Assembly: GCF_000430625.1 (NCBI RefSeq)
Contig: NZ_AUMJ01000058.1
Location: forward strand, 1 to 37,421
Length of the DNA: 37,421 bases
Direction of reading: 5' to 3'
DNA from: Aneurinibacillus terranovensis DSM 18919
GTDB lineage: Bacteria; Bacillota; Bacilli; Aneurinibacillales; Aneurinibacillaceae
Part shown: positions 10,719-33,703 of the stretch, one piece after another
Position numbering within the stretch: position 1 is the first letter of the stretch
Layout: each line of letters opens with the position of its first letter
The notes under the pieces: generated by a model
What the model was told of the DNA's origin: nothing
What the model saw: the letters and a program-made list of their open reading frames with translations, nothing else
The model's database searches: none
Translations under genes and position numbers: made by a program

Positions 10719-10802
10719 AAGGCTTACATCCTATGTAAATAAGCGTTTTGTAATTGTTTTACTTAGTTCTAAAGACCTGAACCAAGAAAATATTCTCTCA
10801 TA

Positions 10803-10890
10803 CGATAATGGCAAACCTTTCGAAAGGAAGGGACGCAAAGCTGTGGACCTACGGAACTCTTGTTCTATGGTAGCCAAGCCGCCGAATTGG
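10803..10890 (+). ncRNA. c-di-GMP-I (GEMM-I) riboswitch
   Basis: The order of conserved blocks fits the class: GGCAAACC, the GAAA-capped P1b-side stem CCTTTCGAAAGG, GGGACGCAAAGC, a GGACCTA...TATGGTAGCC stem with variable loop, then AGCCGCCGA. The GGGACGCAAAGC and GGTAGCC blocks form the ligand pocket and docking site in this class. It is followed immediately by a terminator hairpin, so control by premature termination is expected. Confidence 0.92.
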
Positions 10891-11066: not shown

Positions 11067-11152
11067 ACAATTCCTTGAATCAGTTTCTAATGCTGTGAAT
11101 TGATTGAATAGTATGATTACTTTTACGTTTTACCAGTTGGGAGGTGTTTACT

Positions 11153-13015
11153 GTGACGAAGCAGATGACAGAACATGAATTGACACTTTTAATCAAGCAG
11201 TTAGATCTTAGCGAACTTGATGTTGATTTCATTGATAAACCAATATACGGAAAAAAAGAGAATATCGACGGATTGCCACGAAAACAAGATGGATGGATAC
11301 AAGTGAAAGACCGCAGGATTATCATTCAAGATCCTGTTGACGGGGGAAAATTACCTGTTATTAGTTCTATAGCACCAGTAAAGCTAAAAATCAATGACAC
11401 TGAAATTGTTTCTGAATCTACGATCACATCGGCTGATCGCATTAGCTGGGAGATTGAAGAAAAGCCCTTGTTTGAAATCATAGTCTCAAATGATAAATTG
11501 CATGCATATTTTCATTTGAGATCGAAAGAACGGTTTGGTTGGAAACTTATGAATACAGAGCCTGTATCTAAGATCATCATTATGGCTGAAGAGGATAGGA
11601 ACATCGTGTTAGAGACTGTTCATTTAACCGATGTTGCTTCAATACTTGAGCAAAAATCAATAAAATCGAATCTTGATCTTGCATCCATTCAACAAGAGTT
11701 GATTTCTCCTACGTACAAACCCATCGTTGTAGCTAAAGGAAAAGCGGCAGTGCCGGGAAAAGATGCACAATTGGAGATATACTTTTCACAACAAGTAGAG
11801 AGCCAATTTTTTGAAGTCGGTGGTTCAGTTGATTTTCGCAATCACATGCAAATTCCTTCCGTTAAAAAGGGAGAAATCATTGCAAAGAAAATACCATTAG
11901 TCGAAGGTGTTCCTGGATATGATGTTTATGGTGATGTAATCATTCCTCCTGCGCCCAAAGATATATTTATTGTAGCAAAATCAAATGTTGAACTAACCGC
12001 TGATGGAGAAATCATTGCATTAAAAGAGGGAAGACCAAGAATTACTGGTAGTAGAATCAAAACGTTTGATATATCGACAGCCTTTATCGTCTCTGGAAAC
12101 GTGGACATCGAGACAGGAAATATCGTCTTCTCTGGTGACGTTATTGTTTACGGTAATGTAACGGATCATATGATTATTGAATCATTAGGGAATGTGTATG
12201 TCTATGGCAATATATATAACGCTACTGTTACAGCTACAGGAAGTATTCATGTTAGAGGAAACGTGATCGGAAGCAAGCTTTACTCCGGATATTTTGGTGT
12301 TATGTTCAATCGATTATATAATACCTCAAAAACGCTAAGTGAGCTATTCGAAAAACTTTTGCTGGCTTCCAAGGTGCTTGTACAAGCCCTTGAGTTAAGA
12401 AAACAAACCATTCGGTTTGGGCAAATTGTACTATTGCTGATGGAAAATAAGTTTAAAGAAATACCAACCACCATTAGAGAACTGTTGTCTGTCATTGCAA
12501 ATATTCAACATCTTAAAAATGAAGAGTACCAGAAGTTGAAAGAGATGTCCGAGGTTTTCTTTCAACCGACCAAATTGTTGGAAACGGCTACGGATAGTTT
12601 GATCCAAAGTTTTTTAGTATTGCTTCGTGATACACATCAAGAAGTCGCTCGTATGCAAGAGGAAAAAGTACAAATTTACATTAACCAATGCCATAACAGT
12701 GAGCTAAAGTCGAATGGCGATATTTTGATTCAGCGCGAAGGAGTACTCCTTAGTGATTTGTACTCTGCAAAAAACATTATTTTCAATCACGAGTCTGCTG
12801 TTTGTCGGGGTTCAAAACTTGAAGCTGGAGACAGTATATCAGCCAAAACGATTGATGGACAAACAGGTGCGAATACTGTACTCAAGGCAAATAGGAAAGT
12901 GAGTGTTAAAAAAATGCTGTCGGGTCGGGTTTGTATTGGACGCTTTTGCATGGATATATATGAGGCAATTGAGAATAAGACCTTCGATATCCGTAACATA
13001 AAGCAGAGAGATTGA
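11153..13015 (+). CDS. FapA/DUF342 family protein under c-di-GMP control (620 aa)
   Basis: The DUF342 (FapA) family is recognised from PVDGGKLPVI, the central VPGYDVYGDVIIPPAPKD, and the repeated beta-strand solenoid (SGNVDIETGNIVFSGDVIVY, SLGNVYVYGNIYNATVTATG, SIHVRGNVIGSK). A long helical stretch (about 400-530) precedes a return to beta-rich sequence at the C-terminus (CRGSKLEAGDSISAKTIDG). Family members are linked to flagellar or surface functions, and their role is poorly defined. GTG 11153 is chosen because GGGAGGTG lies 6 bp upstream; GTG 11144 falls inside that site. It is the only intact gene behind the c-di-GMP riboswitch, which fits a motility/surface lifestyle switch. Confidence 0.85.
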   Translation: MTKQMTEHELTLLIKQLDLSELDVDFIDKPIYGKKENIDGLPRKQDGWIQVKDRRIIIQDPVDGGKLPVISSIAPVKLKINDTEIVSESTITSADRISWEIEEKPLFEIIVSNDKLHAYFHLRSKERFGWKLMNTEPVSKIIIMAEEDRNIVLETVHLTDVASILEQKSIKSNLDLASIQQELISPTYKPIVVAKGKAAVPGKDAQLEIYFSQQVESQFFEVGGSVDFRNHMQIPSVKKGEIIAKKIPLVEGVPGYDVYGDVIIPPAPKDIFIVAKSNVELTADGEIIALKEGRPRITGSRIKTFDISTAFIVSGNVDIETGNIVFSGDVIVYGNVTDHMIIESLGNVYVYGNIYNATVTATGSIHVRGNVIGSKLYSGYFGVMFNRLYNTSKTLSELFEKLLLASKVLVQALELRKQTIRFGQIVLLLMENKFKEIPTTIRELLSVIANIQHLKNEEYQKLKEMSEVFFQPTKLLETATDSLIQSFLVLLRDTHQEVARMQEEKVQIYINQCHNSELKSNGDILIQREGVLLSDLYSAKNIIFNHESAVCRGSKLEAGDSISAKTIDGQTGANTVLKANRKVSVKKMLSGRVCIGRFCMDIYEAIENKTFDIRNIKQRD

Positions 13016-32153: not shown

Positions 32154-32234
32154 AAACAGCGGTTTTGACTTACTACATCTTTAGGTTTGTGTTAGAATCG
32201 CATTAGTGAAAAAATTAATGATTCAGTTACTGTT

Positions 32235-32328
32235 TTCTAGGGTTCCGTGATCGTTGCGATCAGCCTGGTCCGAGAGAAAACGCACACTGCGTTGTGTACA
32301 CGGAGGGGCAAAAGCCCGGGAGAAAATA
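32235..32328 (+). ncRNA. Guanidine-I (ykkC) riboswitch
   Basis: Class landmarks appear in order: TCTAGGGTTCCG, a short variable stem, CCTGGTCCGAGAGAAAACGC, an ACAC...TGTGT stem, ACACGGAGGG, CAAAAGCCCGGGAGA. CTGGTCCGAGAG and ACGGAGGG are the near-invariant guanidine-binding blocks. Its 3' edge overlaps the terminator hairpin, so guanidine should permit read-through. Confidence 0.95.
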
Positions 32329-32363
32329 TCCTCAAAAGGTATTTTCTCCCGCTTTTTATTTTC
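32318..32363 (+). terminator. Riboswitch expression-platform terminator
   Basis: GGGAGAAAATA (32318-32328) pairs with TATTTTCTCCC (32340-32350), followed by GCTTTTTATTTT. Its left arm shares GGGAGA with the aptamer's conserved 3' block. Confidence 0.9.
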
Positions 32364-32399
32364 TTGAGATAGTACGTGAGGATAAGGGAGTGTTGGAAC

Positions 32400-32717
32400 G
32401 TGAATTTTTTAATGGAATATAAGTGGGCAATTCTAGCTGTCCTCGAGGTTTTGGCTTGGTCAGCAACGTTTTTTATGTTTTATGCCCGATACCGTATGAA
32501 ATCAAAAGTATGGTTCAGGGTAAGTGTTGTTCTACTTGCCATTACCGGAGTCATTCCACAAGTTGTCATGGGAATTATTAATTTTGTTATGATGAAAAAA
32601 CTTGATTTATTTACACTTGTTATCGTTTTACTCATTCTATATGGTTCTACAATCGGCAAAAAACAAGTCAAAAAGCTGGACGTCTGGGTACAATCCAGAT
32701 TTTCAAAAAGCGCGTGA
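32400..32717 (+). CDS. Unknown three-helix membrane protein under guanidine riboswitch (105 aa)
   Basis: The only gene behind the guanidine-I riboswitch. Three hydrophobic helices are visible: about 6-27 (WAILAVLEVLAWSATFFMFY), 37-62 (VSVVLLAITGVIPQVVMGII) and 68-86 (LFTLVIVLLILYGSTI). The tail is basic (KKQVKKLDVWVQSRFSKS). A Glu (E16) sits inside helix 1, as in the Gdx/SugE guanidinium exporters, but it has three helices, not four, and no SMR signature. GTG 32400 is the start, with GGGAG about 9 bp upstream. I do not recognise the family; a role in guanidine export or tolerance follows from the riboswitch only. Confidence 0.75.
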   Translation: MNFLMEYKWAILAVLEVLAWSATFFMFYARYRMKSKVWFRVSVVLLAITGVIPQVVMGIINFVMMKKLDLFTLVIVLLILYGSTIGKKQVKKLDVWVQSRFSKSA

Positions 32718-32725
32718 TTCTGAAA

Positions 32726-33703
32726 CTAGCTTTTAACCGGAAAAATGCAGAATTGCCTTTCCATCACTTTACCACTGTCGTTTTTGATTGACAGAGTAAT
32801 TTTCGTATTCGTATCAATGCTTCCCTGATCGACGCGGAACAGCAAGGGGATATCCGCAGTAGAGTGAGGTTTTGTATCAATTCGTTTCGGAAGATCCGTT
32901 TTCCAGGCAGTCGGAATGCCGCTGTAGGAAATAGAATAGCTGGCCGGTTTGCCGGTAAGGTTTTCAACGTTGAGGTTATACGTGTAAATAATATAATTCT
33001 GTACGGGAACATTCTGCAGATTTTTCCCCAGGCTAATCGCAAATCCCGTATTAGCCGAAATCGTCCATGTGAACAACGAGACCAGCACAAGCATTACTAC
33101 GGTCAGAATGAGTCCGCTGCCCCGCACCATGTTTTTACATCCATCCTTCCGGGAATGTTTGTCCGACAGCGCCATTTGGAAGATACCGTAAGGACAGGAC
33201 ACCCGGCAAAACTTATAGCGAAGCCGCGAGTTAAGCAGAATGAAAAAGAAAACAGAAATCGTGAGAAACGCGCGGAAGGTCCAGGCTGATAAATCAAAAT
33301 GAATAATGTAGGAAAGCAGCTGCGCCGGATCGTAGAAATACGCAATAACACCGAACGTGATTACAGGGGCACATATAAGCAGAATCACCGTATCCACTAT
33401 GGTTTTTAACACAGGATGCTTTTGAAAAACCGGAAGGCTGAGTATACGGTTCAGGTGAATAAGAAACTTATTGTGCGGGCATGCCCAGCCACAGAATTGG
33501 CGCCCAAACCAAACGGCAATCGCCACGAACGAATAGACGATAAGCAAAATCGCATACAACAGGATTCGACCTTCGCTGAACGCAAACTCGCTGCCAAACA
33601 TGAAAAAATGATTCGATAATAAGTCGATTCGAAAAATATTCAAAAGTGGGACAAGAAAAAAGAGAAGAAGAATACAAGAACGAAAAATGGAACGCTTATT
33701 CAT
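32726..33703 (-). CDS. CcoG/RdxA-like Fe-S membrane protein lacking the ferredoxin segment (325 aa)
   Basis: Multi-helix membrane protein with paired polyferredoxin-type Cys motifs FCGWACPHNKF (C71, C75) and KFCRVSCPYGIF (C166, C170), and a C-terminal Ig-like FixG domain (NYIIYTYNLNVENLTGKPAS). Classical CcoG proteins have two CxxCxxCxxxCP ferredoxin clusters after the second motif. Here DKHSRKDGCKNMVRG leads straight to the next helix and those clusters are absent. CcoG assists copper or heme oxidase assembly, so a link to the nearby qox genes is possible. It may be a natural short form or an internally deleted gene with the frame kept. Confidence 0.75.
   Translation of the reverse strand: MNKRSIFRSCILLLFFLVPLLNIFRIDLLSNHFFMFGSEFAFSEGRILLYAILLIVYSFVAIAVWFGRQFCGWACPHNKFLIHLNRILSLPVFQKHPVLKTIVDTVILLICAPVITFGVIAYFYDPAQLLSYIIHFDLSAWTFRAFLTISVFFFILLNSRLRYKFCRVSCPYGIFQMALSDKHSRKDGCKNMVRGSGLILTVVMLVLVSLFTWTISANTGFAISLGKNLQNVPVQNYIIYTYNLNVENLTGKPASYSISYSGIPTAWKTDLPKRIDTKPHSTADIPLLFRVDQGSIDTNTKITLSIKNDSGKVMERQFCIFPVKS

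Follow-up and report, generated by a model that had tools for sequence, protein, structure and literature searches.

The locus described here raises the question of what a guanidine riboswitch achieves when the only gene behind it encodes an unrecognised small membrane protein. The locus lies in a stretch of 37,421 nucleotides (the window; contig NZ_AUMJ01000058.1) from Aneurinibacillus terranovensis DSM 18919. A sequence-only reading had proposed that this protein could be a new type of guanidine exporter, a small regulator of one, or a sensor. Among these three, export is the likeliest. The riboswitch is a known one, and its target family appears not to have been described before. Table 1 lists the features of the locus.

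Table 1. Features of the riboswitch locus, in window coordinates.
Feature	Position	Strand	Basis
Possible extended -10 promoter element (TGTTAGAAT)	32190..32198	+	by eye; inference
Guanidine-I riboswitch aptamer, ykkC subtype 1	32226..32324	+	covariance model; subtype letters by comparison
Intrinsic terminator	32317..32361	+	fold prediction; 5' arm overlaps aptamer 3' strand
Ribosome binding site AAGGGAG	32384..32390	+	by eye
Gene, 105-aa three-helix membrane protein, GTG start	32400..32717	+	open frame; purifying selection in relatives
Helix 1, residues 9-27	32424..32480	+	hydropathy
Glu16 codon	32445..32447	+	Glu invariant in 38/38 aligned relatives
Helix 2, residues 42-60, with TGxxPQ of the close family	32523..32579	+	hydropathy
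Helix 3, residues 68-86, then basic GKK..KLDxW tail	32601..32657	+	hydropathy

The covariance model of Guanidine-I (RF00442) matches the RNA over its full length; the score is 86.8 bits (E 2.2e-14), above the gathering score of 63. The earlier description of clear aptamer blocks followed by a terminator is borne out, and the aptamer lies where it had been placed, except that its true start is 9 bases ahead of the proposed position 32235. The terminator-like site comprises a stem of 14 pairs (32317-32351) and a T-rich tail, CTTTTTATTT. Aptamer and terminator together are predicted to fold with -46.5 kcal/mol (z -2.98), a value equalled by 2 of 200 shuffles. Because the 3' strand of the aptamer is also the 5' arm of the terminator, ligand binding should block the terminator. 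The window RNA should consequently act as an ON switch for its gene, with a terminator that is predicted to compete with the aptamer. At the site of the possible extended -10 element, a consensus scan lists no plus-strand promoter.

The following gene (32726-33703) lies on the opposite strand and converges on the 105-aa gene, which is therefore the sole possible target of the RNA, as had been claimed. The 325-aa product of this neighbour is CcoG/FixG-like, with 73 bits against an NCBIfam cut-off of 317 bits, which makes it a short or divergent relative. The window contains a second riboswitch, of the c-di-GMP-I class (10800-10886 +, 84.4 bits), which precedes a gene for a 623-aa protein (11144-13015 +) that is presumably polymer-like, of the FapA/DUF342 type.

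The expression platform of the window recurs among the relatives described below. When 70 bases are folded from the aptamer 3' strand, 12 of the 13 family RNAs are predicted to form a hairpin with a T run after it. The exception is locus L108 (loci carry L numbers, genomes G numbers), in which the terminator is absent from this fold, though complementary arms are visible. Aptamer and start codon are about 60 to 180 bases apart in 12 members (116 in L034, 112 in L035 and 84 in L111) and about 435 bases apart in L108.

The identity of the ligand depends on the subtype of the RNA. According to PMC7266159 and PMC5912903, ykkC RNAs include subtypes for guanidine, ppGpp, PRPP and nucleotides, and the former source states that subtype 2 does not bind guanidine. 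For comparison of the letters, 10 family RNAs, including that of the window, were aligned with 3 reference RNAs from in front of APC permease, UAAP and paired SMR genes, and with 7 lower-scoring RNAs, which precede purE, xanthine-type permease, HAD and ilvH-like genes; the gene names in both sets were assigned by inspecting the frames. The pocket letters of the window RNA (CGAGAG, ACACGG and CCCGGGAG) match those of the RNAs before APC, UAAP and SMR genes, and the distinguishing blocks CGAGAG, CACGG and GGGAG are common to these reference RNAs and all 10 aligned family RNAs. The 7 subtype-2 RNAs, found before purine, HAD and BCAA-type genes, differ, with GCG/GTG, and ACACCG or its relatives. 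Judged by these letters, the window RNA is a member of the guanidine-binding subtype 1, and it presumably binds guanidine and mediates induction of the gene. The genome of the window also contains a ykkC subtype-2 RNA upstream of purE (L002, 1501-1605; 59.5 bits, below the cut-off), which by its letters appears to be a PRPP-type relative; the stretch between this RNA and purE reads N.

The three helices and basic tail that had been read from the sequence are borne out by the hydropathy analysis, and the helices are also present in a structure model built from 8 sequences (pLDDT 81.6, pTM 0.64). The model places helices at residues 8-33, 36-65, 70-83 and 85-102, which amounts to three long helices and a C-terminal helix. 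The Glu previously noticed inside helix 1 is Glu16; together with Trp9, it is the only invariant residue in an alignment of 38 near and distant relatives. Arg30, Tyr31 and Gly86 each change once in these relatives, and position 94 is Asp or Glu. Lysine and arginine on the side assigned as inside outnumber those on the outside in every one of the 38 (mean 10.3 vs 1.7), being crowded in loop 1 and the tail, and the protein should therefore sit N-out/C-in. Purifying selection acts on the gene in the three pairs of relatives that are measurable (dN/dS 0.15, 0.21 and 0.26), while two further pairs are saturated.

Profile searches with the protein gave no match in NCBIfam or PADLOC and chance-level rows in Pfam (best E 0.76, far below the cut-off) and PHROGs (best E 0.099). 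No convincing match to a known non-guanidine family was thus obtained from these four libraries. The statement that the protein is no SMR/Gdx exporter, urea carboxylase or ABC component agrees with this outcome, since the profiles match no known family and SMR homology is undetectable. A 38-row profile has 0 matches among PDB sequences up to E 10, and fold searches of the model returned nothing at E 0.001 or better, where an absent row does not prove the fold new. Among viral contigs, 155 stretches fit a pattern and none encodes a relative. The family is without an entry in the libraries searched and appears undescribed. It was not found in the guanidine literature searched, a body that leaves aside the original ykkC target tables, where a prior mention is possible. 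Recognised as a second family behind this RNA, it would allow annotators to name proteins that lack a profile in these libraries.

Seven loci in genomes of Neobacillus, Bacillus, Caenibacillus, Selenomonadales and Pelosinus, together with whole-genome searches, supplied the relatives. They occur in 3 of 15 genomes of the order of the window, in 72 of 397 genomes of the Neobacillus order (5 close, the rest distant) and in 16 of 380 genomes of the class of Pelosinus, presumably Negativicutes. Across 398 genomes of the phylum of the window, the window's own genome is the only positive one in a scan that scored at most 12 candidates per genome and may miss members; the family is accordingly patchy. 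A close member is defined by an E value of about 2e-34 or better, or as a tblastn relative, which gives 28 loci (the window, L003-L009, L011, L012, L033-L040 and L106-L115). The 38-row alignment (A3) omits the near copies L036, L048, L055, L059 and L060, the frameshifted L012, the plasmid relative L104, and L106-L115; by eye, the helix-1 Glu is present in L106-L114, and the start of L115 is disturbed. Distant relatives are mostly about 200-220 residues long and, by eye, combine the same core with further hydrophobic stretches. Two short distant relatives of 111 aa (L046, L052) lie behind a gene for a MerR-family regulator (Pfam MerR_1 on L046), which we take to be TnrA-like. The family is real, and decay of single copies is possible, as in L012.

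The proposal to look for ykkC RNAs upstream of homologues proved productive. An intact Guanidine-I RNA above the cut-off lies upstream of 13 of the 28 close members (the window, L003, L004, L005, L006, L009, L033, L034, L035, L036, L107, L108 and L111). Neither of the two outcomes named beforehand as refuting the earlier reading, a profile match to a known non-guanidine family or homologues never found behind ykkC RNAs, was therefore obtained, and that reading is supported. Two members (L007, L012) keep a remnant of the RNA, and one (L109) has seemingly been parted from it. The remnant of L007 retains the 3' half and the terminator (33.2 bits). At about 1200-1420 of this locus, the 5' half of the aptamer is replaced by other sequence, presumably related to the end of an IS200/IS605-type element, which it resembles, leaving the 3' strand and the terminator. 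A similar remnant, recognised by eye, precedes the frameshifted gene of L012. L109 lies near a contig end, and an orphan Guanidine-I RNA of the same genome enters a transposase-like frame at the end of another contig (L123); an IS3-like element likely inserted into the expression platform and so separated RNA and gene. No Guanidine-I RNA precedes the remaining 12 close members (L008, L011, L037-L040, L106, L110 and L112-L115), nor any of the 14 distant relatives scanned out of 25 fetched. For these RNA-less close and distant members, the substrate may consequently differ or be broader.

Control of the family by the RNA is well supported. The pairing of RNA and gene recurs in the Pelosinus class as well as in genomes of the Bacillales type. 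On a tree of the family that omits L012 and L115 and has weak support (13 of its 24 inner branches are open), the RNA label is clustered and present in the Bacillales part as well as in the Pelosinus part; it requires 5 changes, compared with 9.2 for shuffled labels, and none of 500 shuffles is as low. The RNA-bearing copies sit in varied neighbourhoods, and the listed loci have no close downstream gene on the same strand; the protein therefore appears to work on its own.

Of the responses to guanidine, export is the best known, and SMR proteins are its main agents. The best explanation of the locus, to which we assign slightly better than an even chance, is that a guanidine-sensing ON switch drives a membrane protein for guanidine detoxification, most likely a guanidinium exporter outside the SMR family. 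Guanidinium would bind the aptamer, the terminator would not form, and the 105-aa protein would be made. This protein, N-out/C-in and with three helices, would most likely form a homo-oligomer that expels guanidinium. The buried Glu16 may provide the site for the cation, and perhaps for a proton as well, and the protein would do the job of Gdx though unrelated to it. The exporter reading draws on the Gdx-like control, on the occurrence of the protein alone and on the invariant acid within a helix, as in a cation carrier. That two groups of bacteria have the same RNA-protein pairing suggests that a new kind of guanidine exporter may be at hand.

The distribution of SMR genes bears on a different role, that of an accessory or regulatory small membrane protein modulating a guanidine exporter or importer encoded elsewhere. 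Its three helices and fixed topology would be usual in a small accessory membrane protein, and an SMR-family match, in some cases weak, occurs in 7 of the 10 genomes that were scanned and carry the gene under an intact RNA. However, 3 of the 10 (G000, G015 and G018) have no such match. G000 is the genome of the window (100% complete), and the PF00893 scan is likewise empty in six further genomes of the 18 scanned. The family can therefore stand alone and often coexists with SMR proteins, and it is not a simple replacement for them. The gene also stands by itself after the RNA in numerous unrelated neighbourhoods, and the invariant, buried-type Trp9 and Glu16 suggest that the protein has a site of its own. 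An accessory role is for these reasons unlikely, while retaining some weight. A second family of guanidine exporters would extend guanidine biology to genomes without an SMR gene, such as that of A. terranovensis DSM 18919.

The neighbours of members without the RNA suit export as well, without proving it. TetR genes lie directly before the close members L008 and L038, and a gene annotated as TetR also precedes the plasmid relative L104. A nitroreductase gene directly precedes L112 (Pfam) and L113 (same translated frame), and a Pyridox_ox_2 gene directly precedes L114 (Pfam) and L115 (by sequence). In 6 of 25 distant loci, a regulator gene is located directly upstream, of the PadR type in L051, L054 and L055 and of the MerR type in L046, L052 and L064 (Pfam on L046, L051, L054 and L064); L063 has a divergent TetR gene. 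Regulators of the TetR, PadR and MerR types often govern efflux genes. The same surroundings could also be expected of an envelope stress protein that shields the membrane or membrane enzymes from chaotropic or cationic stress without transporting guanidine, and whose relatives are induced by other toxic compounds through TetR (L008, L038, L104), PadR (L051, L054) or MerR (L064, L046), or stand beside nitroreductase and Pyridox_ox_2 genes. Such neighbours suit exporters too, however, and a mid-helix Glu that never changes would be costly unless it binds something. We therefore consider a stress protein of this kind quite unlikely.

The range of Guanidine-I targets was surveyed in the 380 genomes of the Pelosinus class. 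At least 72 bits are reached by 31 RNAs, with a cut for such strong RNAs that was picked after viewing the list and scan filters that are stricter and lose weak matches. Their targets are the family (9), the split case (1), SMR pairs (10), radical-SAM genes (7) and a Pyridox_ox_2 gene (1), with 3 unclear, so that SMR pairs and the family stand at 10 vs 9 of 31. The 10 SMR and 7 radical-SAM targets were assigned by reading open frames; Pfam was run on one SMR (L127), one radical-SAM (L152) and one Pyridox_ox_2 target, and PF00893 also covers the pair in G021. This genome is the sole one in which a family gene and an SMR pair both lie behind strong Guanidine-I RNAs. Above the Rfam cut-off there are 39 RNAs, and the family follows 9 of them. 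Of the 8 that score from 63 to 72 bits, none precedes the family: six have subtype-2 letters (L140, L141, L142, L157, L159 and L160), L158 resembles subtype 1 and lies before a Pyridox_ox_2-like gene, and L156 has mixed letters and no clear gene. By chance, about 1e-4 such coincidences of RNA and family gene would be expected, in a rough estimate with 16 genes, 600 bases each and about 3 Mb per genome.

Two other gene types came to light in this survey. A radical-SAM protein of about 228 aa lies behind 7 of the 31 strong RNAs (L122, L126, L138 and L151-L154; PF04055 on L152); its frame is broken in L126, and a further copy follows the SMR pair in L128. Such an enzyme in guanidine biology would merit study. 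Pyridox_ox_2 genes (FMN-binding, Nim-like) recur with Guanidine-I RNAs (L124, L132, L137, L154 and L158). In L137 (by Pfam) and L132 (by sequence) they follow a Guanidine-I SMR pair, and in L124 the RNA itself.

Since Guanidine-I RNAs also control uptake and degradation genes, and in N. cucumis lie ahead of an APC permease gene and of UAAP genes, the protein might alternatively import guanidine or a guanidine-containing nutrient, or sense guanidine. The listed RNA-bearing loci have no adjacent degradation genes, which speaks weakly against import, and we regard import or sensing as improbable. A chance neighbourhood of a real RNA and an open reading frame that is not its functional target can be dismissed, as it is refuted in practice by the comparative data (linkage in 13 of 28 close members, the dN/dS values above) and nothing was found in its favour beyond the decay in L012, which shows that single copies can be lost.

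The exporter reading invites comparison with known systems, first of all with SMR/Gdx proteins. The family shares with them a length of about 105 residues, control by Guanidine-I and a conserved Glu in helix 1. The latter had been likened to the essential Glu of Gdx; the Glu is indeed invariant, whereas homology between the proteins is rejected, with no PF00893 match and an hhalign probability of 1.3% over 22-23 columns. The helix-1 Glu is consequently at most an analogy. SMR/Gdx proteins have four helices, whereas hydropathy and the predicted model give three for the 105-aa protein. PMC9574504 describes SMR proteins as having dual topology or coming from a gene pair of opposite charge bias. 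The family, in contrast, has the same charge bias in 38 of 38 relatives and a single gene. Three helices, a fixed topology and the lack of profile similarity point to another architecture than that of SMR proteins, probably a parallel oligomer, and the mechanism of the antiparallel SMR dimer cannot simply be copied. As a second family of equally small proteins behind this RNA, and one unrelated to SMR proteins, the family would offer a direct test of the minimal needs of a cation exporter.

Two further kinds of small three-helix protein were compared. PQ-loop/SemiSWEET proteins (PF04193) are similar in length (about 85-105 residues), in their three helices and, by eye in the close family, in a PQ pair followed by D and YG. 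Kinship, hinted at by TGxxPQ...D...YG, is rejected, with no PF04193 match and hhalign probabilities of 0.5% and 1.8%. The PQ of the family lies in helix 2 and that of PQ-loop proteins in helix 1, and P53 is kept in 18 and Q54 in 22 of the 38 relatives. NuoK/ND4L-type subunits likewise have three helices with a buried Glu. Several weak structure rows (Z 4.9 to 6.3, a range that helical bundles reach by chance) presumably belong to such subunits, judging by their chain names; sequence identity to the protein is 6 to 12%, and Foldseek gives no match at E 0.001.

PMC12186494 and PMC7736828 name SMR/Gdx proteins as guanidine exporters, with MATE and PnuC proteins proposed as well. MATE and PnuC proteins behind Guanidine-IV riboswitches are likewise non-SMR membrane proteins under a guanidine riboswitch for which export was proposed by association (PMC7736828). 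They differ in belonging to much larger known families and in following another riboswitch class, and the Pfam scan shows no similarity between them and the family. Tentatively, and with a chance somewhat short of even, the family may represent a fourth type of protein, independent of SMR proteins and of the proposed MATE and PnuC exporters, that solves the problem of guanidine export: a parallel homo-oligomer of about 105 residues per chain, with three helices and a fixed topology, built around the helix-1 Glu, whose larger Bacillales relatives (about 205-220 residues) would be efflux proteins for other cations.
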